A stretch of 64,000 nt of DNA. Origin: Alphaproteobacteria bacterium. Lineage in GTDB: Bacteria; Pseudomonadota; Alphaproteobacteria; Ferrovibrionales; Ferrovibrionaceae. The stretch covers positions 62,001 through 126,000 of the forward strand of contig JAHCJQ010000001.1 in the NCBI GenBank assembly GCA_026126215.1, read 5' to 3'. Below, piece after piece: positions 5,195-60,484 of the stretch. A model generated the notes under the pieces. It saw only the letters and a list, made by a program, of their open reading frames with translations, had not been told where the DNA came from and did no database searches. The position numbers and the translations under genes were made by a program. Position 1 is the stretch's first letter; the number at the start of each line of letters is the position of its first letter.

Positions 5195-7096
5195 ATGCGG
5201 GCTTGGCAAATGATGCGACGGCTGGCGCGACCCGGTCTTGCGGGTGCCATCGCCCTGCTGCATGCCGTGATCGCCGGCAGCTACATCCTGCTGAGCGACG
5301 CCGCACTCTCGTGGTTCGTGGCCGATCCGGGACAGAGGCAAGCGCTGGAATTGGCCAAGGGACTTGCCTTCGTCGCGGTCACGTCGCTCCTGCTTTTTCT
5401 CGGCCTGCGCGCCGGCTGGCGCCAGCTCGCCCGGGCGCGTTCGCGCCTGCAACTGGCGCTCGAGGGTCACGGCATTCTCTGGGAGGTCGATTTCGCCTCG
5501 GGACGGATATGGCTCTCGCCGGAGGCCACAGGCCTGCTCGGCCTGGATGCCGCGGCGTATGAGGCGCTCCTGGCCAGCGGGCGCTGGTCCGACCTTGTGC
5601 ATGCCGACGATCTCGCCGGCCTGGAACTCGCGCTCGATCGCACGCGGATCCTGGACGAGCCGTTCCACCAGCTCTTCCGCATGCGCCATCGCGATGGTCA
5701 CTATCTGTGGCTCAAGTCGGAAGGCCGGGTGCGCCGCGACCGAAAGGGCGTGGCGCGGGCGATGACGGGCATGGCGCTCGACGTGACGCGACTGATCGAG
5801 ACTCAGGCAAGGCTGCGACGCGTGAGCCGCTTCGATCTCCTGACCGGGCTGCCGAATCGCGACGAGTTCTTGCGGCTGCTCGCCGCGCGGCTCGCCCCCG
5901 ACGGGGAAAGAGGTGGCTGGCTGCTGCGGCTCGATGTCATTCGCTTCCGCGAGATCAACAGTGAACTCGGCTTCGCCGCCGGCGACGAGGTGCTGCGTCA
6001 GCTCGCGCGACGGCTGCTTGATGCAGCCGGCCCCCAGGCGCTGGTCAGCCGCTTGCCGGCGGACGAGTTCGCGATCTACACCAGCGACCCGCCCGACGAG
6101 TTGGCGGCTTCGGATTTCGCCGCCAGACTGGCGAAGAAACTGCGCGCGCCGTTGGATCTGTCCGGGCGGGTACTGCAGGTCGAGTGCCGGATCGGGCTTT
6201 GCGTCTTTCCACGCGACGCGCGCTCGCCGCAGGAACTTCTGGCTGCCGCCGGCCTCGCGCTGTCGGAGATGCCGCGCGGCAGTGCCGGCATCCGCTATTA
6301 CGATTCCGGCATGGACATGCGCTTCCGCGCCCGGATCGAGCGGCTCGATGCCTTGCGGCATGCGCTGGAACGGCGGCAGATCCTGCTTCACTTCCAGCCG
6401 GTCATCTCGCTCGTGGATGGGGCCGTGCTGGGGTTCGAGGCTCTCGTTCGATGGCAGATCGACGATGACACGCTTCTGCCACCGGGCGAGTTTCTGCCCC
6501 TGGCCGAGGAGCGCGGCCTGCTGGAAGAGATCACCGCCTTCGTGCTGTCAGATGCCTGCCGCGAGGCGGCGGCCTGGCCGGACGGGATCTTCGTCGCGGT
6601 CAATGTGTCGCCTTCGCTGCTTGGCGGCAGCTGGCTCATACAGGCGGTCGATGCAGCACTCTCCGGCAGCGGACTTGCGCCAGGCCGGCTCACCCTCGAA
6701 GTGACAGAAACGGCCCTGCCCGACGACATCGCCGCCGCCGCATCGTGCCTTGGCAAGATGCGCGCGCGCGGTATCGGGGTGGCGATCGACGATTTCGGTA
6801 CCGGCTATTCGTCATTCCTAACGCTGCAGTCGCTTCCCGCCAGCCGGCTCAAGATCGACCGGCAGTTCATCGCCGGCCTCGGCGAGAATGCAACGGCGCG
6901 GGCGATCGTCGGGGCGATCATCGATCTCTCGCGCGCCCTCGCCCTCGAAGTCACCGGCGAGGGCGTGGAAACGGCCGCGCAGGAGACGGCGCTGCGGGAA
7001 GCCGGCTGCGCCAGCGCACAGGGATACCGCTTCGCCCGACCCCTTGCCGCAGTGGATACAAAAGCGTTCATTTATAACCACCAAAGGAAACCTTAA
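5195..7096 (+). CDS. PAS-GGDEF-EAL protein, probable c-di-GMP phosphodiesterase
   Basis: Membrane-anchored signalling protein of 633 residues. Two hydrophobic segments (about 10-35 and 50-70) precede a PAS domain (about 85-195), a GGDEF domain (about 215-365) and an EAL domain (about 385-625). The GGDEF signature is replaced by LPADEF around residue 287, so cyclase activity is unlikely. The EAL domain keeps EALVRW, the NVS and EVTE segments, DDFGTGYSS, LKIDR and GEGVET, which hold the metal and catalytic residues. It should therefore degrade c-di-GMP, with the PAS and degenerate GGDEF parts serving as sensors (inference). The ATG at 5195 is preceded by a GGGCGAGGG purine run; the frame stays open further upstream but reads as noise. 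It is followed by three orphan receiver proteins. Confidence 0.9.
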   Translation: MRAWQMMRRLARPGLAGAIALLHAVIAGSYILLSDAALSWFVADPGQRQALELAKGLAFVAVTSLLLFLGLRAGWRQLARARSRLQLALEGHGILWEVDFASGRIWLSPEATGLLGLDAAAYEALLASGRWSDLVHADDLAGLELALDRTRILDEPFHQLFRMRHRDGHYLWLKSEGRVRRDRKGVARAMTGMALDVTRLIETQARLRRVSRFDLLTGLPNRDEFLRLLAARLAPDGERGGWLLRLDVIRFREINSELGFAAGDEVLRQLARRLLDAAGPQALVSRLPADEFAIYTSDPPDELAASDFAARLAKKLRAPLDLSGRVLQVECRIGLCVFPRDARSPQELLAAAGLALSEMPRGSAGIRYYDSGMDMRFRARIERLDALRHALERRQILLHFQPVISLVDGAVLGFEALVRWQIDDDTLLPPGEFLPLAEERGLLEEITAFVLSDACREAAAWPDGIFVAVNVSPSLLGGSWLIQAVDAALSGSGLAPGRLTLEVTETALPDDIAAAASCLGKMRARGIGVAIDDFGTGYSSFLTLQSLPASRLKIDRQFIAGLGENATARAIVGAIIDLSRALALEVTGEGVETAAQETALREAGCASAQGYRFARPLAAVDTKAFIYNHQRKP

Positions 7097-8691: not shown

Positions 8692-8980
8692 GGCAAACTC
8701 CCTCCGCGATGGCGGCGAATTGCCGCCTCATCTGCAAATGGCAGTGGCCCCGTGGCCGGCTTGGGGGAACCGTGCCACGGGGCCATCGGTCGGATGGCGG
8801 CGAGACATACCAAAGACCAGGATCTTCGCCACCTTGCAGCCGCTTCCCGTCGGGGGGTACGGGCGAGCGGCACGCTCCGTGCCGTCAGAGGAGACTATAT
8901 GTTAGATACTTAAATAAATAGTAAAAAGCGGAATGGCTGTATAAGATTTCTCCGACGGGGATTTATCCAGGCAGGTCCGG

Positions 8981-9343
8981 ATGCGCGTTCTGGTGATCGA
9001 CGATTCCGCCGAGATCCTCGAGTTCGTCAAGATGTGCCTGGAGGAAGCCGGGCACATGGTCACGGCGATGCAGAATGCCGAGGATGCGATTGCCGTAGCC
9101 GGCGCCGGCGGGGAACCGTTTGATGTCGTGGTGACCGATCTCGTCATGCCCGGGATGGACGGGGTCGAACTTATCAAGCGGCTGCGCCAGCTCGACGGCA
9201 AGGTGCGGATCGTTGCCATGTCGGGCGGCGCGCGCCAGCTCCCGGCGGAAATCGGGCTCACGCTTTCAAGCGCCTTCGGTGCGGACCGCACCCTCTACAA
9301 GCCCTTCCGCCCCCGGGACCTCATCAAGGCCATCGAGCCCTGA
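8981..9343 (+). CDS. Single-domain response regulator
   Basis: A 120-residue receiver protein with D7/D8, phosphoacceptor D53 in VVVTDLVMPGMDG, S81 in MSGG and K107 in YKPF. It is the third orphan receiver within 2.2 kb and closely resembles the one at 7698, so the two probably arose by duplication. The upstream region (about 8890-8940) is conspicuously AT-rich and is the likely promoter. There is no output domain and no kinase partner in the window. Confidence 0.87.
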   Translation: MRVLVIDDSAEILEFVKMCLEEAGHMVTAMQNAEDAIAVAGAGGEPFDVVVTDLVMPGMDGVELIKRLRQLDGKVRIVAMSGGARQLPAEIGLTLSSAFGADRTLYKPFRPRDLIKAIEP

Positions 9344-9350
9344 AGGCGCG

Positions 9351-9362
9351 CCCCGGCCGGGG
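9351..9362. terminator. Palindrome between convergent genes, possible bidirectional stop
   Basis: A perfect 12-base GC palindrome, CCCCGGCCGGGG, fills most of the 28-base gap between the receiver gene and the convergent hydrolase-glycosyltransferase gene. It could pause transcription from both sides, but there is no loop or T-run, so the terminator call is weak. Confidence 0.25.
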
Positions 9363-9371
9363 ACCCGGCTC

Positions 9372-11480
9372 TCAGAGCAGTTCCGCCAGCATGCGCGCGG
9401 CCCGCGCCGCGCCATCCGCCTCGACAGGCCTGAATTGCGGTGGCGCCCGCAAGGCCGCGACCATGGCTTCGGCGATCTGGTCGGGCGTCGAAGTCGCATA
9501 GTCCATCCGCCGTCCCGCGCGATAGCGCTCGAGACGGTGGGCCACGTGAAAGTTCTGCTCGAAATGATTCCTTAGCGGAAAATAGAGAAACGGCGTTCCC
9601 GCCGCGGTCAGCTCCATGCATGTGGTGAGGCCGCCCTGCACGAGAGCGAGGTCGCAGGCCGCGAGATGGCGGTCGAGGTCGGGCACGAAGTGACGCGTCT
9701 CGACGCCGGAGGGTGCCGCGATCGATGCCGGGTCGATGCGCGGCCCGGTGACCAGAACCATGCGCAGATCGGGCAGTCGGGCACGGACCATCGGGAAGCT
9801 CTCCAGCACGCGCCCGATCAGGTGTGCGCCGACGCCGGAGCCACCGACCGTGACGATGCAAACGCGCTCGTCGGCGCGATAGCCAAGACGTTGGCGCAGT
9901 TCCGCGCGACTGCCAAAGGTCCTCGGATGCTCGCCGATGACATAGCCCGAGAAGTCGAAATGCCTCGGAATCCAGTCGCGCATGGCAGGCAGCCCGCTGC
10001 CGAAGGACAGCGGCACGATATCGTCGGGCTCGCCGACGAAGATGGCGCGGTCGCGCACACCGGGATGGCGCTCCACATGCCCGATCATCTCGGCATTGTA
10101 GTCGGCGGTGAGGAATGCCTCGCGCTCGCCGTTCTCCGGCATCGGCACGAAACCGACGAAATCGGTGAGCCAGGCGAGCTTCGCCTTCTTGAGTTCCGGA
10201 TGCTCGTGCCAGTAATGGTCTATATCCCAGGCTTCGTCCGCGATCACCAGATCATAGCCGCCCTCGTCTACCGCATCCTGGAAGATCATGAAATTGGCGA
10301 TCAGGATCTCGTCCATGCGGCGTATGGCCTGAAACGCATTCAGCTCGTGCGCGCCGGCCTCGAGTTCGATGTGGCGCGATTCGCTGGCCAGCCTGGCACT
10401 GAGCGGATGTATCCGCTCGCCATGGGCAGCGAGCAGCCGCGTAACGGGATCCTGTGCCAGCCAGTCGACCTTCAGGTCTGGATGGAGCCTGCGCAGTTCC
10501 TGCGCGATGGCAATGTCGCGGCGACCATGGCCAAGGCCGATCGGCGAGGAGAGATACAGCACCTTCCTGACCTTGGCCGCCCGAGGCGTCCGCTTTCTTG
10601 CAGGTGCCGCGATGCCCAGCCTGCGGTCGAGAAAATCGACGATCAGCCCATTGCATTTAGCCGGAAAGCGGCTGTTCGGTGCATGGCCGCCGCCGGGGAT
10701 GGTGACGAACTCCGCGCCGGTCAGTTCGGCGAGCACGCGCGCGCGCTCGTGGGGCTGGATCTGGTCGTTGTCGCCATGGATAAGCAGCACCGGGCAACGG
10801 ATCCTGCGATACATCTCCTCCCCGACATCGAACGGAGGCGCAATGGCACGCGCTTCCACGGTCCTTGCCAGCGTGGCACCGGTCGTGCCTGCCGCCCATT
10901 CAAGACCCTCCTCGATCTGCCGGGTCGAGTGAGGTTCGGTGAAGATGTTCGTTATGAAATGCTCTGCAAAGTCGGGATAGTTCGTCAGCCAGTAGTCTCG
11001 ATTGAACTTGTCCCATCCTTCGTAGCGCTCGCGCTTGGCCATGAAGTTCTGCGCCGTCGTGCGCGGATGACCCGGACCGACCGTGGCTACCGTCCCGATG
11101 AGGATGGCCGCCTTGACCCGCTGCGGATGGTAGGCAGCAAGTACGCAGGCGTGCAAGCCGCCGAGGGACAGGCCGACCAGGACCGCCTTTTCGACCGCCA
11201 CGGCATCCATGACGGCGAGCGCATCGGCGACGGAATGATCGAGCGCGTATGCCCGTGGATCGTCCGGGCGATCGGACCTGCCATTGCCGCGCGGATCGAA
11301 GGAGATGCAGCGGAAGCGTTCGCTGAAATAGGGTATCTGCGCCTTGTAGATACGGGAATGGACGATGCTCCAAGGCGGCAGGAACACCATGGTCTCGCGG
11401 CCGCTGCCATGAACCTCGTAGAAGAGGCGCACGCCATCACGCGAGACGGTTCCTTCCCGGTCGGGCACTCTGGCGCGCAC
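9372..11480 (-). CDS. Alpha/beta-hydrolase fused to GT-B glycosyltransferase
   Basis: A 702-residue two-domain protein. Residues 1-290 are an alpha/beta-hydrolase with the nucleophile elbow GLSLGG (S105), an acid in HGDND (D239) and H266 in GGGHAP, a complete triad. After a basic linker (RKRTPRAAKVRK) residues 305-702 form a GT-B glycosyltransferase. It has a GLGHGRRD loop at its start, like MurG and related enzymes, and a donor-site block QGGLTTCMELTAAGTPFLYFPLRNHFEQN near the C-terminus (split here by function, not by gap). The frame is continuous and codon use is even, so this is a real fusion. The GTG start has GGAGGTG six bases upstream and lies four bases past the stop of the TetR gene, giving one transcript. 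Substrates are unknown; cleavage or transfer on a glycolipid or polyketide-like compound is conceivable. Confidence 0.85.
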   Translation of the reverse strand: MRARVPDREGTVSRDGVRLFYEVHGSGRETMVFLPPWSIVHSRIYKAQIPYFSERFRCISFDPRGNGRSDRPDDPRAYALDHSVADALAVMDAVAVEKAVLVGLSLGGLHACVLAAYHPQRVKAAILIGTVATVGPGHPRTTAQNFMAKRERYEGWDKFNRDYWLTNYPDFAEHFITNIFTEPHSTRQIEEGLEWAAGTTGATLARTVEARAIAPPFDVGEEMYRRIRCPVLLIHGDNDQIQPHERARVLAELTGAEFVTIPGGGHAPNSRFPAKCNGLIVDFLDRRLGIAAPARKRTPRAAKVRKVLYLSSPIGLGHGRRDIAIAQELRRLHPDLKVDWLAQDPVTRLLAAHGERIHPLSARLASESRHIELEAGAHELNAFQAIRRMDEILIANFMIFQDAVDEGGYDLVIADEAWDIDHYWHEHPELKKAKLAWLTDFVGFVPMPENGEREAFLTADYNAEMIGHVERHPGVRDRAIFVGEPDDIVPLSFGSGLPAMRDWIPRHFDFSGYVIGEHPRTFGSRAELRQRLGYRADERVCIVTVGGSGVGAHLIGRVLESFPMVRARLPDLRMVLVTGPRIDPASIAAPSGVETRHFVPDLDRHLAACDLALVQGGLTTCMELTAAGTPFLYFPLRNHFEQNFHVAHRLERYRAGRRMDYATSTPDQIAEAMVAALRAPPQFRPVEADGAARAARMLAELL

Positions 11481-11484
11481 GGCG

Positions 11485-12099
11485 TCACCTCCGCCGCGAG
11501 GCGCTTTCCGCGACGCGAATCAGATCGCCGACGCGGCGCAGGGCCTGTCGCACCGGAACGTCCTTCTTCTCGAGGCCGAGCAGATACTGGCTCTCCGCGC
11601 CGATGAACAGGTTGGCGATCAGCGCGGCAACTTCGTCCACCGTGAACGGGCCGAGGCCGCCAAGCTCGCGTTCGGCCCTCCGCACCAGTTCCGTGATCAG
11701 GTCGATCCAGCCCTTGATGCCGGCCCGCGTGACCGTTGCCACCTCGGCATCGGTCCAGCTCGCGGCGATCAGCTCCTGCAGCACGCGCACATAACCGGAT
11801 GCGATGTCGTCGTCGAGATAGTCGCAGGCCCTGTCCCACTGTTCCGAGAGTCTGAGTTCCGGGTCGCGGAAGAGCGCATTCTGGCGGTCGAGGAGCCTGG
11901 CATTGAGATACTCGAACAGAGCCAGCACCAGCCCGAGCTTGGAGCCGAAATGGTAGTGGATCTGGCTCAAGGGCACGCCGGCCACGGCCGCGACGTCGCG
12001 GGTCGATAGTCCGGCATAGCCATTCTGTCGCAGCACCTTCTGCGCCGCATCGAGCAGTGTGGTGCTGGTTTCCGTTCTCCTTGCCGGGGCCTCTGCCAT
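11485..12099 (-). CDS. TetR/AcrR family transcriptional regulator
   Basis: About 204 residues. The N-terminal helix-turn-helix (AAQKVLRQNGYAGLSTRDVAAVAGVPLSQIHYHFGSK region, residues about 14-50) has the TetR recognition-helix tail HYHFGSK. The C-terminal ligand/dimerisation domain is diverse and does not reveal the inducer. The ATG at 12099 has AGGAAGAGGA upstream; a longer form starting at 12147 is less likely. The gene follows the MddA-like gene by about 110 bases and precedes the hydrolase-glycosyltransferase by four, so it probably controls both, perhaps through the paired palindromes at 13071-13113. Confidence 0.9.
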   Translation of the reverse strand: MAEAPARRTETSTTLLDAAQKVLRQNGYAGLSTRDVAAVAGVPLSQIHYHFGSKLGLVLALFEYLNARLLDRQNALFRDPELRLSEQWDRACDYLDDDIASGYVRVLQELIAASWTDAEVATVTRAGIKGWIDLITELVRRAERELGGLGPFTVDEVAALIANLFIGAESQYLLGLEKKDVPVRQALRRVGDLIRVAESASRRR

Positions 12100-12210
12100 C
12101 AAGATTCCTCTTCCTGTCTTCGCCAGGCCACGCATGCGTGCCTGCAATCTCCCGGAATACGCAAGGTAGCCGACGCGGCGATGCGCGACTATTCAGGTAG
12201 GCACGCCAGC

Positions 12211-12993
12211 TCAGCGATGGCGGGAATCCTCCGCGCGCAGTTCGGGCGCCGGCGGGTCGGCCATCCTTCCGCGCGGCAGCGGAATGAGCATCGAGACCTG
12301 CCGACGATACTGGCGGTACTGATCGCCGAACAGCGCGATCAGGTCGCGTTCCTCGAGATGGATTCCAATCAGGATATATCCCGTGGTCGCGACCGCAAAG
12401 AGGAGGTGACCCATGCTCATCGTCGGCGCAGCCCAGAATGCCAGCAGGAAGCCGAGATAGATCGGGTGCCGGACGCGCTTGTAGAAAAGCGGCGTCCTGA
12501 AGGCCGGCGGCGGCGGCGTCCGGCCTGTCAGTCGGGCGAAAACCTGGCGCAGGCCGAACAGTTCGAAGTGACTGATCAGGAACGTGCTGACGAGAACGAG
12601 CGCCCAGCCCGTCCAGAAGGCCATCTGCAGGAGGATCACGCCGAGCGGATGGCTCACCGTCCAGACCGGCTGCGGCATCGGCCGCCACTGCCAGTAGAGC
12701 AGCAGCAGCGCGAGGCTGGCAAACAGCACATAGGTCGAGCGTTCGACCGGAGAGGGCACGAAGCGTGTCCACCAGCGCTTGAACGCCGGCCGGGCCATGA
12801 CGCTGTGCTGCACGGCAAAGAGACCGAGCAGCAGCGCATTCGTGGCAATGGCCGCACCCAGCGGACCAGCTTCGCCGCTGTCGATGGTCTTTGGCACGGG
12901 CAGGTTGCCGACGAAGGCCACGGCATAGAGGAAGGTTCCGAGGAAGATCCCATATGCGACCAACCCATAGAGAACGGCGACTGGCCCAGACAT
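12211..12993 (-). CDS. mddA: Methanethiol S-methyltransferase-like membrane protein
   Basis: A 260-residue multi-pass membrane protein of the NnrU/isoprenylcysteine-methyltransferase-like superfamily. It closely follows the pattern of MddA, which methylates methanethiol to dimethyl sulfide with S-adenosylmethionine. Diagnostic blocks are [61 protein letters not shown] and GIHLEERDL near the C-terminus. Five to six hydrophobic segments are visible. The gene is the first after a strong candidate operator region and precedes the TetR regulator and hydrolase-glycosyltransferase on the same strand. The family call rests on remembered motif similarity. Methylation of another thiol or small acid is possible. 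Confidence 0.72.
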
Positions 12994-13070
12994 GGCAGTA
13001 CTCCCCTGGCAGGTTTGCAGCGGACATCCGGATGCGTGGATTCGGGCGTAGTCTTCCCTCTGTCTTGTTC

Positions 13071-13113
13071 GGTCGGCCGACCTAGCCTCTATGAGTGTAT
13101 ATCGGTCGACCGA
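13071..13113. promoter_or_regulatory. Paired palindromic operators upstream of mddA-like gene
   Basis: Two perfect 12-base palindromes, GGTCGGCCGACC at 13071-13082 and TCGGTCGACCGA at 13102-13113, share the GGTCG/CGACC core. Their centres are 31 bases apart, close to three helical turns. They lie 78-120 bases upstream of the mddA-like start and downstream of the MarR gene. This is the arrangement expected for cooperative binding of a dimeric repressor. The TetR protein encoded two genes downstream is the obvious candidate; the MarR protein upstream is the alternative. Confidence 0.6.
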
Positions 13114-13176
13114 CCGAAGTCAATCCCCGCGATTTCCGTCATGGCCGGAACTGCGTCCGCGACGTGCCGGCCTGGC

Positions 13177-13659
13177 CTAGGGCTTCTCACCCTCCGCCGG
13201 CAGCCGGCGCAACAGGTTGCGCAGCAGCAATTCCATGACCTCGGCACCGGCGAAAAGCTGCTCGTCGGAAAGCTCGGCCAGATGCTGGGCGAGCTTGGCC
13301 ATCGGATCGTCGAGCAGCGCACGGCTGCCCTTGGATGTGAGTTCCAGCACGCGCCGTCGCGCATCGACCTCGGAGGGCACCTTGCGGATGAAACCCCGCT
13401 GTTCGAGCGAGCCAAGGGTCTGCGAGGCGCTGCTTGGCGTCGTCAGGTTGTGCCGGGCAAATGCACCGACAGTGCGCGCCTCTTCGTTCGCGCCGGCGAT
13501 ATAGCGTAGCGCCGCCCATTGCGTGGGATTGAGCCCGAAGGCGAAGGACTGGCTGGACAGCAGGCGCGAGAACTGATCGATCAACTCCAGCAATGCGGAC
13601 GCGGCTCGAACTTTCGGGCGCTCCCTGTCGCTTGCATGCTGCGTCATTGCTGCCGGCAT
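13177..13659 (-). CDS. MarR family winged-helix regulator
   Basis: About 160 residues with the MarR layout: a helical dimer interface at both ends and a winged helix in the middle (LNPTQWAALRYIAG, NLTTPSSASQTLGSLEQRGFIRKVPSEVDARRRVLELTSKG). The wing carries the usual D-x-R-R arginines. No good ribosome-binding site marks the start; ATGs at 13659 and 13647 and a GTG at 13686 are all possible. It reads toward the mddA-like gene and is divergent from the MFS gene at 13871, with which it shares an upstream region of about 200 bases, so it may regulate that transporter. Confidence 0.85.
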   Translation of the reverse strand: MPAAMTQHASDRERPKVRAASALLELIDQFSRLLSSQSFAFGLNPTQWAALRYIAGANEEARTVGAFARHNLTTPSSASQTLGSLEQRGFIRKVPSEVDARRRVLELTSKGSRALLDDPMAKLAQHLAELSDEQLFAGAEVMELLLRNLLRRLPAEGEKP

Positions 13660-13870
13660 ACCCACAGAATGTTGGTAAGCATACACTAGGCGAGTCGCCG
13701 TCCCACGTCACCCGGCCTGTTGCATTCCGGGACAGAACGCATGGTTGGCGCGCCCGCCGCCCGAACTCGCGCCACCGGTTCACCCCCGATTTTACCTGCA
13801 AGATCCGGGCGGCGGCGGGCCGGACACAATGCCAGTCTGCGCCAACTTCCAGGTTTCGCAGCGAGGCACG

Positions 13871-49486: not shown

Positions 49487-49786
49487 ATGAATGAGGTCGT
49501 GGACATGATCGCCATCTCCGAGCACGCCAAGCGTAGATGCCAGACTCGTGGCATCCGTTCCGACTTCCTGGTCGCGTTGATTGTGAATGCCGACATGGAT
49601 TTCGCGGTCGGGGACAATTGCCGCATGCTTCGCGTGAGCCGCCGCCAAGCCAAAGCACTGAGCCGGTACGACAATATCGATCGTTACGGGGTGATCTGGA
49701 GCGATGACAACCAGAAGATTGTTTCCGTCATCCCGATCCATGACGGCCCGAAGGGGCGTCGCTATCGGCGGCAGTACTGCCAATGA
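49487..49786 (+). CDS. DUF4258-like small protein
   Basis: A 99-residue basic protein. IAISEHAKRRCQTRGIRSDFLVALIVNAD matches the opening H-x-x-x-R-x-x-x-R-G-I pattern of DUF4258 and related toxin-like proteins, and VGDNCRMLRVSRRQAKAL and IWSDDNQKIVSVIPI follow. A relative lies at 60549. Function is unproven; distant similarity to RelE-like folds is sometimes suggested for such proteins. The start at 49505 is an alternative. Its stop overlaps the next start by four bases, making it the first gene of a four-gene cassette. Confidence 0.65.
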   Translation: MNEVVDMIAISEHAKRRCQTRGIRSDFLVALIVNADMDFAVGDNCRMLRVSRRQAKALSRYDNIDRYGVIWSDDNQKIVSVIPIHDGPKGRRYRRQYCQ

Positions 49787-51363
49787 GCAGCAACATCATT
49801 CCTTTCGTACTACCCGCAGAGAAACAGGGGAGCCGAGAATTGCCAGCCGATCGTGCGAAAGAGGAACAGGAACACGAGCACAAACAGCGCTCGCAGGAGC
49901 TGGTGCAACTGAATAGGCTTCGCGAGCAAATAAGTCGCGAGAAGAGCGAAGGCAGGAAGGGGCCAATATTTGGTCGCAATGAGCTCATTCTGGCCGCACA
50001 GGCGGTGGACCGTCTGGTTGGAAAAGTTTGCACCTTGAAAGGGGCAAAGATCTCGGACATCCAGGAGTGTCTGACCGGCAACCTTGCCCGTCTGGAGCGC
50101 TTTCGCGTCGATCTTGATCTCCAGACTGAGCAGTTGAGCGAGACCGATCTGACGAGGATCCGGAAGCGGCTCACGCAGAAAATTGAGCCCTACCTTGAAC
50201 TCACGAGAATACTGGCTCACCACTACGGTCTCGACGCTATTGAAGAACAGATCGCAATTCTGCGCCCTACCGTCTTTGCTCGATTCAGGCAAGCAACGCC
50301 GGAAACGGACGCGCTTGACCTCGAAGCAGCAGGACATCTCACCTTGCGCCTGAACGCCGTGGCGCAGCGCGTCATTCGACAAACTGCACTGGTAGCCCTG
50401 TTCAGGCGCATGCAAAAGATTCCAGGCATATGGTCGTTCGAGGAGAAAACCTTCAGACGCTCGGAAATGAGATGTCTACGGCCGATCCCCTACGCTGGAT
50501 GGAACGAGTATTGGGGTGAAGCGCCGCCGTTACCCTCTGTGCCGTTGATGCGGTTCCTTCACAGCGTCGTGCCTCTGGATGTGATCGTGGGCGAAGACCC
50601 GGGAGTTACACCGCGCAAGGCGCTTCTGGGCCTGTTCCGTCAAATCGGCCTGGCCCTAGGTCCCACATCATCGGTTGAACAGATCGGGCCTCTGTACGAG
50701 ACGCGGCCATATTTCGAGCTGGTTTTCGTCGACACCGAAGACAAGAGAAAACAGTATGACCTTGGCGCCACGTTTGGCCCTCATCTGGAACTTGTCCTTG
50801 AACACTGGACCGGTGCTCAGCTTCGACCAAACCACACTGTCGAGAACCTGGCGGAGCATGGCCGAACCTCAGTCAGAGATGGTGATGCCTGGAAGCCGAT
50901 CCGTTCCATTGGCCCACTGATTGCCGTCTCTTTCGAGCAAATTATGTCTGCTGTTGCAGGAAACCCTGCGCACCATCCCTTCCTTTGGGACTTTTACCCT
51001 CTTGAAGACGAGAGATGGGGTTGTGAGTACTGGTACTTTTCGTGGACGCCAGTTCGTGCTGATTACACAGCCTATTGGCTAGACCGAGATACTGATCTCC
51101 CCGGCACTTGCCGAACGCTTCTCGAGCCGGGCGGTTCACCCGCCTCGCCGCTTTATCCCAGCGGAACCATCGCCTCTGAAGTCGAGTGCGCGATCGCCAG
51201 CAACGCTCTTGAAAAAGACCTCCGTTCCGCTGTCACCGAAATCCGGACAGCGTTCGAGAGATGGGAACAACAATGGCGAGAATCGGCAGCACGTGAAACC
51301 GACCGCCTGGTCAATGAGCTGACGCAGGATGCGTCCGCCGAAGCTGATGGTTTACCGGAATAG
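49783..51363 (+). CDS. Unknown 526-residue protein with charged coiled-coil N-terminus
   Basis: The gene starts inside the stop of the DUF4258-like gene (ATGA overlap). After a short hydrophobic start, residues about 20-60 are highly charged and helical (AKEEQEHEHKQRSQELVQL), probably a coiled coil. A globular middle (about 60-450) contains aromatic-rich stretches such as YPLEDERWGCEYWYFSWTPVRADYTAYWLDRD. A final helical tail follows. I recognise no domain. G+C is visibly lower than the window average, suggesting horizontal transfer. The neighbouring nuclease-like gene hints at a defence or mobile-element role, which is inference. Confidence 0.8.
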   Translation: MSSNIIPFVLPAEKQGSRELPADRAKEEQEHEHKQRSQELVQLNRLREQISREKSEGRKGPIFGRNELILAAQAVDRLVGKVCTLKGAKISDIQECLTGNLARLERFRVDLDLQTEQLSETDLTRIRKRLTQKIEPYLELTRILAHHYGLDAIEEQIAILRPTVFARFRQATPETDALDLEAAGHLTLRLNAVAQRVIRQTALVALFRRMQKIPGIWSFEEKTFRRSEMRCLRPIPYAGWNEYWGEAPPLPSVPLMRFLHSVVPLDVIVGEDPGVTPRKALLGLFRQIGLALGPTSSVEQIGPLYETRPYFELVFVDTEDKRKQYDLGATFGPHLELVLEHWTGAQLRPNHTVENLAEHGRTSVRDGDAWKPIRSIGPLIAVSFEQIMSAVAGNPAHHPFLWDFYPLEDERWGCEYWYFSWTPVRADYTAYWLDRDTDLPGTCRTLLEPGGSPASPLYPSGTIASEVECAIASNALEKDLRSAVTEIRTAFERWEQQWRESAARETDRLVNELTQDASAEADGLPE

Positions 51364-51411
51364 GCTTACTGCCAATTCCTTTCCGCATGAATGTTTGACA
51401 GGAGATTGAGA

Positions 51412-51825
51412 ATGGACCTCGACACGTTCAGGCATCTGCCCGCCCACCGAAAGAAGACTCTTATTGAGAATGCGAAGCGCACGCTTTGCCGGCAGCCTGA
51501 CAATGCACTTGCGCGTCATATTCTCGCAATCGCGAAGGACTGCGATCTCTTGTCTCACCGAAACAGGGCCGTGAAGAACCGCAACAAGATCACATGGACG
51601 CCTCACGGCCACGATACGGTCAGCTATGGCCTCGTCGACAACAAGCGTTTGGCCATCATTCGAAAGTTCGAGAACCACAACAGCAGGAATAATGAAGTCT
51701 ACGAGGTCGAAGTCGCGGGAAGGGTGCTCCCCGATCGATATCGCTACTTACGCGATGCCCACAAAGCTGCAGAGGATGCACTCGCCAACACATTGGCCCA
51801 CTCAAAGTCAGTTGCGCAGAATTGA
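51412..51825 (+). CDS. Unknown 137-residue basic protein
   Basis: The ATG at 51412 has AGGAGA upstream. The protein is basic and has a helical start (MDLDTFRHLPAHRKKTLIEN) followed by a beta-type stretch (DTVSYGLVDNKRLAIIRKFENHN, EVYEVEVAGRVLPDRYRYL). No family is recognised. It lies between the coiled-coil protein and the nuclease-like gene on the same strand, spaced 48 and 31 bases, so it is probably part of the same cassette. Confidence 0.7.
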   Translation: MDLDTFRHLPAHRKKTLIENAKRTLCRQPDNALARHILAIAKDCDLLSHRNRAVKNRNKITWTPHGHDTVSYGLVDNKRLAIIRKFENHNSRNNEVYEVEVAGRVLPDRYRYLRDAHKAAEDALANTLAHSKSVAQN

Positions 51826-51856
51826 TACTTCGGCCCGCAACGAAGAGGCAGAGGCC

Positions 51857-52843
51857 ATGTCAGCAAGATCTTCCAAACCTGCGGTATTCGCTGATGTCTG
51901 GTGGCAAACAATCCCCGCACTCCCAACCTCGCCAAGCTCTCAAGCCTATTTTGCTCTGCGTCGCGTATGGGGCGACCATACGATCGCTGGCGCCAGGAGT
52001 TTCTATCGCCTCGGCTCGGAAGATAACGTGACTCCGGCACTTTTTCAGAACTGGGCAATATTCGGCGGCCGCACTTGGCTGCCTGACCTCGTTTCACACT
52101 GTGGCGGCACAGTTCTCGGAGCCGTGACACACGTCCAGTGGGCCTATGCGTGCGAAGAGGTGCTGGATCAAAGACTAAGGCCTGACCATGGACGCGACTT
52201 TGTAACGCCGGATATCATGCTCAGATGGGAGGATGAGGCTGGCGAGGGACTACTGGTTATCGAGGTCAAGAAGCCGGGGACTGCCGTAGAGGCAAAGGAC
52301 TACCGTAAACTGGCTACGTATTGCGACCTCCCCAGCACCAGAAGCATCGGACGCCGCCATGGCTGCTTCCTGCTCGGTGAAAGTGCCGCACGACGGACGA
52401 ATCACGTCTCGCATGGAGAATTCCCGATTCTGACGTGGGAACAACTGGCTGACATGCAACTTCGCTGGACGGAGAAGCTCGATGTTCCCGACCGGATCAG
52501 GCAGAGAGCGCGCGCTTGGCTGGTTCGGCACTTTGACTTCTACGGTGTCCGGGTAGAAGCTCTTGCCGCGCCACAATCCTTTGGTCCAGCGTTTGGCAGT
52601 GAAGCGTCGCATCGGACGATTTCCAAGCTTGAAATTCCCGAATCCCTGAAGCTCTTCTTTCTTGGATCGGAGTGTGCCGAAGCGCTTCGGCAGGGGCTTC
52701 AGCCAGTTGCGCCACTTCGATGGCTTGAGGAAGAACCAACGGCGAATGACATCCGACGGAGAAAGTTCCAATCCACCGACGATCGACGCATCAATCGATG
52801 GAACCGAAGCTGGAACGCCGCCGCGGAAAGAACCTGGACGTGA
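51857..52843 (+). CDS. PD-(D/E)XK nuclease-like protein
   Basis: A 328-residue protein whose middle holds a classical restriction-endonuclease-like core. PD at 118-119 opens a strand (TPDIMLRWEDEAGEG), and E136-V-K138 follows in LLVIEVKKPG, giving the D-(16)-E-x-K arrangement. An upstream acidic residue at E100 or E101 could complete the metal site. The C-terminal third contains no known domain. It ends the four-gene lower-G+C cassette. Probable DNA cleavage is inferred from the motif only. The ATG at 51857 is preceded by a GAGG purine run. Confidence 0.72.
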   Translation: MSARSSKPAVFADVWWQTIPALPTSPSSQAYFALRRVWGDHTIAGARSFYRLGSEDNVTPALFQNWAIFGGRTWLPDLVSHCGGTVLGAVTHVQWAYACEEVLDQRLRPDHGRDFVTPDIMLRWEDEAGEGLLVIEVKKPGTAVEAKDYRKLATYCDLPSTRSIGRRHGCFLLGESAARRTNHVSHGEFPILTWEQLADMQLRWTEKLDVPDRIRQRARAWLVRHFDFYGVRVEALAAPQSFGPAFGSEASHRTISKLEIPESLKLFFLGSECAEALRQGLQPVAPLRWLEEEPTANDIRRRKFQSTDDRRINRWNRSWNAAAERTWT

Positions 52844-57937: not shown

Positions 57938-58789
57938 TCAGACGGAATCTGCTGATATCACACCAACATCTACACATTTTCGAAACCCGACCAGCCCTGC
58001 CGATTGTCGAGCCTGATCCGCAGTAAGGTCAAATAGCTCGTCGGCGGGGTCGGGAGCGGACAGGATCGTACCAAGTCCGCTGGTAAGTATGTCGCAGGCG
58101 ACGCCGTTCTCGACGAAACCTGCAACCCCATCGACGATCACGCGTCGAGGTATGCGACACGGCCCATCGAGAGATACTCCATTTGCAGCCGCTGAGGCCA
58201 CGATTGCAGCGGCCTGGCGCAGTGTGGGTGCCATCGACTTGCTTGGGTATCGCTGCGTCGGCTTTGGGATGAACTGCCCGACCGGCTTGAAAATCGCTGA
58301 ACGCATTGGGGCGATATTCAGTACAAACCTGTTCAAGGTCGCGCGCTCTGGATTGTCCTTGGGCTCGCCTGCAAGTGTTGCAGAATGGCGCTCCTTTGAA
58401 TGTGGCGCATTTCCTGCTGTTGAGCCGCCGCCTGGATCCAGGTTCGTCAATGGACCACCTTCATGAAGGCGCTTGAACGAACTGATAAGGAACATTTCAC
58501 GCGCGAGTGCAGTTGCCTCGTCAGTTGCGACGAAATCAATTTCGTAGATGATTCTGTCGCCGGCACTCTTGATCTTCCTGATCACATTGAGCTTGAAGGG
58601 GTTCGACCGATAGTCGTTGGGATGCCGCGCTTCATTCTCGTGATCAAGAACGCGGTATGCCTTTCCTTTCCCTACGTAGAACGGACGCCCGTCCGGCCTT
58701 CGAAGTATGTAGACATACGAAGAGCTTAAAGACCGCAGAAACGCCTTGCAGCTTGCCTGATCACCAATGAACACGGATCCTGTTTTCAT
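57938..58789 (-). CDS. GIY-YIG nuclease domain protein
   Basis: A 283-residue protein. The N-terminal domain has YVYILRRPDGRPFYVGKGKAYR (residues 25-46), the GIY-YIG strand pair in the LEM-3/endonuclease form, followed by a later glutamate in LAREMFLI that would bind the metal. Residues 110-283 are an unknown domain with GDRGT-like loops and SMAPTLRQAAAIVASAAANG, which may recognise DNA. AGGGAGA precedes the start. It lies on the same strand as, and 60 bases downstream of, the split rmuC gene. G+C is lower than average. Confidence 0.8.
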   Translation of the reverse strand: MKTGSVFIGDQASCKAFLRSLSSSYVYILRRPDGRPFYVGKGKAYRVLDHENEARHPNDYRSNPFKLNVIRKIKSAGDRIIYEIDFVATDEATALAREMFLISSFKRLHEGGPLTNLDPGGGSTAGNAPHSKERHSATLAGEPKDNPERATLNRFVLNIAPMRSAIFKPVGQFIPKPTQRYPSKSMAPTLRQAAAIVASAAANGVSLDGPCRIPRRVIVDGVAGFVENGVACDILTSGLGTILSAPDPADELFDLTADQARQSAGLVGFRKCVDVGVISADSV

Positions 58790-58849
58790 TGATCTGTCTC
58801 CCTTCGGCAGGTTTTATCCCGACTCGGCGAGCCGATCCGCGTCGCTCCC

Positions 58850-60484
58850 TCAGATACTTGCCTGCTCCTCGCTGTCAGTATCTTCGTCTGAGCCATTGTC
58901 AGGCAGGGCCGAAAGCTGGAGCATTGCTTCGGCCTTCTCCTCGGGCAGCATCTCGACGCCTTGCAATTTCCTGTTCATCGCTCTGGTCCGGGTACTCAGA
59001 TTGTCAATGGTGTTGCTCGCTGTTTCGAGCTGCTTCTTGAGCTTGTTCACGACTTCCCCGTACTTGGAGAACTCCTTCCGCACCGCCCCAAGCACCTGCC
59101 AGACTTCGCTTGATCGCTTCTCGATGGCGAGCGTCCGGAAGCCCATCTGCAGGGCGTTCAGGATGGCGGTCAGAGTGGTCGGCCCGACCAGGATTACCCG
59201 GCACTCCCGCTGGACAAGATCGAAGAAGCCAGGTCGTCGCAGCACCTCTGCATAAAGACCTTCCGTCGGGAGAAACAGCAAAGCAAAATCCGTCGTTCTC
59301 GGCGGGTTGATATACTTCTCTGAAATAACCTGAGCAGATTGACGCACACGAGCAAGCAGGGCATTCACCGCGGCATCGACGGCGGCACTGTCCGAAGACT
59401 CGGCTGCCTGCACGAGGCGGTCATAGTCCTCTTGTGGAAACTTTGCATCGATGGGCAGCAGAACTTCTGCCTCTTCGCCACGACCGGGAAGGCGGATGGC
59501 AAACTCCACACGCTCGCCCGAATTCTCCTTTACCTGGGCATTGGCAAGATACTGTTCCGGGGAAAGGAACTGCTCCAGGAGTGTGCCGAGCTGCGTTTCT
59601 CCCCAGATACCCCGAGTCTTGACGTTCGAGAGCACCTTCTTCAGATCGCCGACGCCTGCCGCCAGCTTCTGCATCTCTCCGAGTCCGTGATAGACACGTT
59701 CCAGTTGCTCGGTGACCATCCGGAATGACTCTCCCAGCCGCTTCTCGAGCGTCGTCTGGAGTTTCTAATCGACCGTATTGCGGATTTCATCCAGCTTTTG
59801 CCCGCTCTCTGCCCGTATGACGTCAAGACGACCTTCGACGGTCCCGCGCAAGCCCTCCAGAGACCTGGTCTGTTTCTCCGTCAGGTCCGCAATTTCCTTC
59901 GCAACCTTGTCGAGCTTGTCGGTCTGCTGCAGGCCAAGAACCTCCAGATGGGCGGTCATGGCCTGCCGGAGGCTGCCGAAGCTGCTTGACAACTCCTCCC
60001 GCAGCGTCTTGCCCGTCTCGGCAGTCTGCTGGCCAAATGCGTTGAGCCTCTCGTCAATCTGCTGGCGCTGGCGGTCGCGACCTTCGATCGCCTCCCGCCC
60101 GAGCTTCGCGATATCCTCATCGAGCTTCCGGGCGATGCGCTCGATGCGCGCTTCATTCTCCTTCATGTCCTGCTCGAGCGTCTTCGCAAATCCATCCATG
60201 CGCGCCGTAATCTGTTTGCTGAGCTCACCAAACACCCCGGCAGTTGAGGTTTGAAAGCCCTGGATGCTGCCCGCGAGTTCGGTGCGCAGGCGTCCGGCAT
60301 TCTCCTCGGCTGTCATTCGCGATCGATCAGCCTCCTGCCGGATCGCCTCGCCAAGGCTGCGGATGTCGGCTGCCGTGGCGGGTTGAGCGGCGCCTTCGGG
60401 GCGTGACGGCAACCTGAACAGGAGAACCAGAACAAGCGCAAGGGTCGCGACGGCAAGGATTGTTGGCAAGTGGTCGAGTATCAT
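58850..60484 (-). pseudogene. rmuC: rmuC interrupted by an in-frame amber stop
   Basis: DNA recombination protein RmuC, coiled-coil plus nuclease-like domain. The first part (60484 down to 59765) encodes the membrane anchor and coiled coil (residues 1-239). The second (from 59719 down) encodes the conserved RmuC core, including GIWGETQLGTLLEQF, LPIDAKFP and TDFALLFLPTEGLY. Both lie in the same frame. The only break is a TAG at 59765-59767, and reading through it gives the uninterrupted sequence NTVD-stop-KLQTTLEKRLGESFR. A GAG-to-TAG substitution would explain it. Sequencing error, true nonsense mutation or suppression are the options. The start has GGAGAGAC upstream. Confidence 0.85.

Follow-up and report, generated by a model that had tools for sequence, protein, structure and literature searches.

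A hydrolase-glycosyltransferase fusion gene beside a TetR-family regulator: a possible inducible unit for inactivating small molecules

The question raised by this locus is whether a single polypeptide that carries both an alpha/beta hydrolase and a GT-B glycosyltransferase is genuine, and what such a protein might do in the company of a TetR-family regulator and a methyltransferase resembling MddA. The stretch of DNA analysed here, called the window, is 64,000 nucleotides long. The original prediction for it described a complete hydrolase triad and a complete glycosyltransferase donor site on one continuous chain of 702 residues, in an odd trio with the other two genes. Table 1 gives the positions of the features discussed.

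Table 1. Features of the fusion gene and its surroundings, in window coordinates
Feature	Position	Strand	Basis or remark
Fusion gene, 702 aa	9372..11480	(-)	alpha/beta hydrolase + GT-B glycosyltransferase; 131 confirmed relatives, best 80 kept
Hydrolase domain, residues 1-290	10611..11480	(-)	Pfam; triad conservation; fold matches
Triad codons	S105 11166-11168; D239 10764-10766; H266 10683-10685	(-)	identical 79/79
Linker, residues 291-304	10569..10610	(-)	low-confidence model stretch near 291-300; split point in L063, L079
GT-B glycosyltransferase domain, residues 305-702	9375..10568	(-)	Pfam; motifs; fold matches
Glycosyltransferase residue codons	H318 10527-10529; Q615 9636-9638; E641-Q642 9555-9560	(-)	motifs 79/79
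TetR-family repressor	11485..12099	(-)	TetR_N; homologue upstream in 81/81 loci
MddA-type membrane methyltransferase, first gene of predicted operon	12211..12993	(-)	NF045656; adjacent in 35/81 loci
Operator 1 (predicted), exact TCGGTCGNNCGACCGA	13102..13117	(-)	only exact site in 3.65-Mb assembly
Operator 2 (predicted), one mismatch	13069..13084	(-)	just downstream of predicted -10

The fusion gene, its relatives and their history

The frame is open from a GTG start through all 702 codons, as originally claimed, and Pfam recognises both domains: Abhydrolase_1 at residues 45-266 (E 6.3e-27, 95.2 bits against a gathering score of 25.8) and Glyco_tran_28_C at residues 541-681 (E 2e-8, 34.9 bits against a gathering score of 22). 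The search for relatives took one genome per species, from 84,980 species; it confirmed 131, a lower bound since the scan requires short exact peptide patterns, and the best 80 were kept. All 80 span both halves, at 54-96% identity, and 78 do so as one open frame (that of L031 was found by tblastn though missing from the ORF listing). The triad had been assigned correctly: S105, D239 and H266, a GxSxG-type nucleophile with its Asp and His, are identical in all 79 aligned members, that is, the window and its 78 unsplit relatives, as are the glycosyltransferase motifs SPIGLGH (H318), VQGG (Q615-G616-G617) and HFEQ (E641-Q642). Comparison with a 96%-identical relative (L009) gives a dN/dS of 0.24 for the hydrolase and 0.06 for the linker plus glycosyltransferase, so both halves are under purifying selection. 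A frameshift or assembly join of two genes, the possibility that the original prediction itself had raised against the fusion, is excluded by the 78 single-frame relatives and by the dN/dS of both halves. The fusion is a real gene, conserved in scattered bacteria.

The full-length fusion was found in 7 of 289 genomes of the class and in 2 of 200 of the phylum. Its relatives reach Betaproteobacteria, SAR324, Actinomycetota and Deinococcus; the copy of Deinococcus QL22 is on a plasmid and has one in-frame stop within the glycosyltransferase part. One annotated record names the products alpha/beta hydrolase and glycosyltransferase. Trees of the hydrolase, the glycosyltransferase and the adjoining TetR protein are concordant (rank correlations of distances 0.75-0.81), the hydrolase having evolved about twice as fast as the glycosyltransferase (mean tree distance 1.33 vs 0.63).

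In two relatives, L063 and L079, the hydrolase and the glycosyltransferase are separate neighbouring genes. Both group with L070 in the glycosyltransferase and TetR trees (support 0.97-0.98), and in L070 a standalone hydrolase that shares 81% identity with that of L063 precedes a fusion with a different hydrolase, the two hydrolases of L070 sharing 47% identity. L079 retains, between its two genes (6881-7075), three fragments of a fused-type second hydrolase, in three different frames. This grouping, together with the fused-type remnants in L079, led us to reject the split as the ancestral state of these two; the simplest history is that a fusion gained a standalone hydrolase and that the fused hydrolase then decayed, and both split cases look secondary. 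Whether in cis or in trans, a hydrolase has been retained in every case, and this suggests that the two activities serve one pathway. A decayed copy in another family of the class (G083/L090, C1:1713906-1714229) has only the last 110 glycosyltransferase residues left, at 75% identity. These natural split, duplicated and decayed versions offer a ready test of whether physical linkage of the activities matters.

The two catalytic halves

The hydrolase half matches esterases and an enol-lactonase in fold, at Z about 29-31. It shares its fold, GxSxG nucleophile and Asp/His with aryl esterases, the enol-lactonase PcaD, Est816 and the macrolide esterases EstT and EstX, but identity to these is only about 20-28% and the fusion adds a C-terminal glycosyltransferase domain. 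The fusion likewise misses the cut-offs of the corresponding curated models, scoring 104.2 bits vs 255.85 for the 3-oxoadipate enol-lactonase PcaD (TIGR02427), and 66.2 vs 420 and 57.6 vs 450 bits for the macrolide esterase models NF052610 and NF041759 (EstT). The closest-named fusion in NCBIfam, the lipase/adenylate cyclase LipJ, is a weak match (50.6 bits vs 800); LipJ and PcaDC also join a hydrolase of the same superfamily to an unrelated catalytic domain, but that domain is a cyclase or decarboxylase in them and a glycosyltransferase here. Residues 7-286 also match the far end (residues 332-599) of PHROG 789, annotated as esterase/lipase and 637 positions long; this phage-borne family appears to have a related hydrolase behind another domain.

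The fold matches of the hydrolase half also include RsbQ (Z 28.9) and the plant D14 (Z 28.6), which, along with the weak LipJ match, would suit a hydrolase acting as a ligand-sensing domain that switches the glycosyltransferase on. We regard such a role as highly improbable: the unit already has a sensor in its TetR protein (81 of 81 loci), L063 and L079 encode the hydrolase separately, and the best fold matches are ordinary esterases.

Modelled alone (pLDDT 88.7), the glycosyltransferase half matches OleI (Z 27.7), CalG1 (27.5), UGT109A1 (27.3), the spider-mite enzyme TuUGT202A2 (26.0) and MurG (25.8), the OleI match spanning the whole GT-B domain (343 aligned residues, rmsd 3.5); by sequence it is closest to YjiC/UGT109A1 and Kcn28. 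With the GT1-type macrolide and aglycone glycosyltransferases (OleI, OleD, CalG1, YjiC/UGT109A1) it has in common the GT-B fold over the whole domain and an EQ pair, and with YjiC and UGT109A1 a sequence match of the C-terminal half. Comparison with YjiC, UGT109A1, CalG1 and MurG places the EQ pair at the sugar site, HFEQ aligning with the YEQ of UGT109A1 and YjiC, and H318 is presumably the catalytic base, as judged from GT-B families. The complete donor site claimed at the outset has to be corrected at one point, Q615, which in all 79 members occupies the place of the HGG histidine of YjiC/UGT109A1 in the alignment. Unlike the GT1-type enzymes, to which it is 16-20% identical, it has QGG rather than HGG and an attached hydrolase, and the macrolide glycosyltransferase model TIGR01426 is missed by the fusion (32.4 bits vs 260) and by the glycosyltransferase half alone (33.8). 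The MurG and Glyco_tran_28 group is approached through Glyco_tran_28_C, above its gathering score, and the MurG fold match, but the models for MurG (TIGR01133, 32 bits vs 250.25) and MJ1255 (34.6 vs 195.9) are far from reached and the gene is a fusion without cell-wall context. UDP-GlcNAc 2-epimerases match the glycosyltransferase model as well, at Z ~25. A shared fold is no proof of function.

The AF2 model of the whole chain has a pLDDT of 89.1 and a pTM of 0.89; over two catalytic domains such a pTM suggests that both are predicted in a fixed packing.

The repressor, its predicted operator and the methyltransferases

The TetR frame is open to 12147, and the start homologous to those of its relatives is the ATG at 12099. 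A TetR_N domain (45.8 bits vs a cut-off of 24) bears out the family proposed for it. The homologous gene lies upstream of the fusion on the same strand in all 81 loci (the 80 kept relatives and the window), and in 79 of them its alignment ends within 53 nt of the fusion; of the exceptions, L070 has its extra hydrolase in between, and the TetR protein of L088 is more distant (30%) and aligned only in part. Within the class the TetR protein (E up to 1e-12) was found in exactly the 7 of 289 genomes that have the full-length fusion, so the pair travels together. The arrangement is that of the local repressor operons of TetR, QacR and AcrR, in which the repressor adjoins the gene it controls and a palindromic operator lies over the promoter; in those operons, unlike here, the controlled gene encodes an efflux pump rather than a fused enzyme.

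The best curated match of the TetR protein is the ScbR autoregulator-binding family, at a weak 41.8 bits vs 150, and among the near matches of the hydrolase half is Est816, an acyl-homoserine lactone (AHL) lactonase. Taken together these might point to a unit whose target, to be degraded and glycosylated, is a signal of the AHL or butyrolactone type, yet the similarities are all far below the family cut-offs and no signal synthase lies beside the unit in the loci examined; we think this very unlikely.

Upstream of MddA, operator 1 fills the whole 16-bp spacer between the predicted -35, TTGACT (13118-13123), and the predicted -10, TATACA (13096-13101). The palindrome TCGGTCG-NN-CGACCGA is exact in 44 of the 79 usable upstream regions (L024 and L054 were omitted, the contig end being too near) and in one region at most in any shuffle, while 72 of the 79 contain the unified core TCGKTCGAMCGA with no more than one mismatch, against 0.2 expected from shuffles; outside the first group the core is mostly TCGTTCGAACGA. 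No operator of this kind precedes the TetR gene of Deinococcus QL22. TetR would be expected to bind these palindromes. Since the operator stands ahead of MddA and not between MddA and TetR, the three genes appear to form a single transcription unit. The supposedly odd trio is present in full, the MddA-like gene exceeding the cut-off of the methanethiol S-methyltransferase model NF045656 (369.6 bits vs 270), but these are more than odd neighbours, the TetR gene being invariant and MddA lying behind a shared operator-promoter.

In the genome of the window five places come within one mismatch of the operator, two of them in the MddA promoter. Fifteen carrier genomes, chosen among those with an exact site and with contig identity inferred from coordinates, hold 24 exact sites, all inside the operon locus, and none for a reversed control pattern, so the regulon seems to be this operon alone. 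Across the class 11 of 289 genomes have the exact operator; 4 of them belong to the 7 fusion carriers and the other 7 are non-carriers. With the reversed control turning up in 8 genomes, the non-carrier sites are at chance level, and the one inspected (G236, L114) is inside a coding frame. A wider regulon was rejected on the strength of these chance-level sites and of the position, in the MddA promoter, of the sole exact site in the window's own genome.

In what may be called the METHYLTRANSFERASE slot, MddA adjoins the fusion in 35 of the 81 loci (by tblastn, the count adopted; 32 by clustering), upstream in 32 of them and on the downstream side in the other three (L025, L028 and L054). A second, unrelated methyltransferase with an Rv2258c-like domain (c3) is found in 13 loci, downstream in 11 and divergent upstream in L047 and L049 with the operator in between, and a DUF1326/DUF2182 (PpoB2) pair or a single member of it in 12. 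Never do two of these three share a locus, and 21 loci have none of them, L071 and L072 among these having a third kind of methyltransferase. About 30 of the 81 have neither methyltransferase family, the others having MddA (35), c3 (13) or a class-I enzyme, c97 (2). The P values for the lack of overlap among the neighbour families, 2.7e-4 and 5.5e-4, ignore phylogeny and are indicative only. On the combined glycosyltransferase and TetR tree the neighbour labels change 17 times vs 40 in shuffles (minimum 32); they follow the tree, then, with several independent origins, and the Rv2258c-like gene falls into four separate groups. In the MddA tree, from which 9 of 55 candidate copies were removed for stops, gaps or length, most operon copies (28) lie together with a group support of only 0.19, and the copies of L028/L037 and L054 fall in other MddA lineages, among non-operon copies, which suggests at least three separate recruitments of MddA. 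The gene also exists outside the operon: the MddA cut-off is passed in 22 of 289 genomes of the class, with the gene beside the fusion in only 3 of the 7 carriers, and L020 and L021, which have another methyltransferase at the locus, have MddA elsewhere in the genome. The MddA association is common but not required, and some methyl transfer seems favoured.

Other neighbours across the loci are tailoring or conjugation enzymes: glutathione S-transferase (GST), FAD oxidases of the berberine-bridge type and second hydrolases. A GST lies near the fusion of L014. In L071 (1561-3928) and L072 the TetR-fusion pair is immediately preceded by genes for a berberine-bridge-type FAD oxidase and for a member of the homocysteine S-methyltransferase family. 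DUF1326 and DUF2182 (PpoB2, copper chaperone) are downstream of the fusion in L053, L055, L059, L063, L065, L067, L076, L079, L080 and L087; one more, weak tblastn match to DUF2182, covering 105 residues at 32% on the opposite strand of the MddA locus L051, was left uncounted.

The S-methyltransferase score of MddA, its position behind the operator and its recruitment from at least three lineages, along with the homocysteine S-methyltransferase-family gene of L071/L072 and the GST near L014, would also be in keeping with an organosulfur unit, in which a thioester or something similar is cleaved by the hydrolase and the thiol so released is then capped, either through S-methylation by MddA or through S-glycosylation. 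We consider this unlikely to a marked degree, as the fusion lacks an adjacent MddA in 46 of the 81 loci, the alternative methyltransferase bears no sign of thiol specificity, and MddA homologues in their membrane superfamily may methylate other groups.

A candidate role for the unit

Several features would suit a small molecule's being inactivated on induction: a local repressor with a sole target, enzymes for hydrolysis, glycosylation and methylation, a glycosyltransferase whose fold is of the antibiotic/xenobiotic type, and a patchy occurrence. Our preferred reading, which we put forward tentatively and at a little short of even confidence, is that MddA, TetR and the fusion form a self-contained, substrate-inducible unit that inactivates or turns over one class of lipophilic small molecule. 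With the compound absent, TetR would sit on the two palindromes, over the -35/-10 spacer and the start region, and keep the promoter shut; the compound or a relative would bind TetR and release it. The hydrolase half would then open an ester, lactone or similar bond by means of the Ser-Asp-His triad, and the GT-B half, with H318 as base, would add a sugar from an NDP-sugar to the same molecule, probably on the group exposed by hydrolysis. In most lineages a further group would be capped by a methyltransferase, drawn from one or another of several unrelated families. We infer both chemistries, the order of steps, the hand-over from domain to domain and the role in detoxification; the compound may be a toxic or signalling small molecule that is hydrolysed, then glycosylated and often methylated.

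This proposal draws on the invariance of the triad and glycosyltransferase motifs (79 of 79) and on the fixed domain packing suggested by the whole-chain pTM. It draws also on the nearness of the glycosyltransferase fold to antibiotic and xenobiotic enzymes (OleI, CalG1, UGT109A1/YjiC, TuUGT202A2) and of the hydrolase to esterases and an enol-lactonase. The strict linkage to TetR and its predicted operator, the patchy occurrence, including a Deinococcus plasmid, and the tailoring or conjugation enzymes nearby point the same way. Against it, no reaction can be read from the sequence of so promiscuous a fold as the alpha/beta hydrolase, the nucleotide site has glutamine where the solved UGT relatives have histidine, the 2-epimerases match the glycosyltransferase model, no transporter or other resistance gene is a constant neighbour in the 81 loci, and about 30 of these loci have neither methyltransferase family.

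The glycosyltransferase half is, moreover, unusually strongly conserved for a broad-specificity detoxifier, with a tree distance half that of the hydrolase, and one fixed acceptor or an endogenous substrate would fit at least as well. This conservation and the absence of a transporter keep alive a biosynthetic or housekeeping role, in which a glycosylated metabolite of the cell itself, be it a glycolipid, a pigment ester or a signal, would be made or remodelled by the fusion, with TetR as its feedback sensor. The very strong purifying selection on the glycosyltransferase half, the one-to-one linkage with the regulator and the presence of methyltransferases, which are usual tailoring enzymes, would all be explained; the patchiness within the class (7 of 289), the regulon of one operon and the 81 loci, where no constant biosynthetic core gene stands beside the unit, make us judge it unlikely, though it carries real weight.

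In its fuller form, the inactivation reading would make this an undescribed resistance or detoxification unit, one polypeptide that hydrolyses and glycosylates one compound class at sites packed together, with a dedicated repressor and with methyltransferases added repeatedly and independently; that much we hold to be rather improbable. In its boldest form the compound would be a thioester or masked thiol, and the sulfur toxin, once freed, would be S-glycosylated and S-methylated. An anti-phage role was rejected, PADLOC giving no match for the fusion, TetR or MddA, and Rfam found no RNA family at 8900-13800.

All the parts come from known superfamilies, and by sequence only MddA reaches the cut-off of a characterised enzyme family. 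The original prediction knew of no well-characterised enzyme with this pair of domains, and in the open-licence PMC literature we found none either, nor the same hydrolase-glycosyltransferase fusion in print, nor the domain pairing, the fixed regulator with its operator or the recurrent recruitment of methyltransferases; the passages of PMC5607357 that were examined mention no gene cluster, glycosyltransferase or hydrolase. If our preferred reading is true, the fusion is a compact enzyme of the 'open it, then conjugate it' kind with a sensor of its own, in logic comparable to phase I and phase II drug metabolism carried out by one chain. Thanks to the dedicated TetR and its operator the substrate should be directly findable, an inducer of the operon being the compound or a look-alike, and two questions become testable: the role of MddA-type methyltransferases inside such an operon, and the way in which Alphaproteobacteria from soil and the sea deal with a class of compounds that has no annotated resistance or degradation gene.

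Some further features of the window deserve mention. A single-domain response regulator (8981-9343, plus strand) is convergent with the fusion and ends 28 bases from its stop, in the window and in L009. Two ORFs of 526 and 405 aa at 49783-52843 (plus strand) have no Pfam match and a G+C of 0.56-0.58 vs about 0.65, and may belong to an island. At 57938-60484 (minus strand), also of lower G+C, a LEM-3-like GIY-YIG protein, an RmuC-family protein and an apolipoprotein-like helical protein are encoded in a row.
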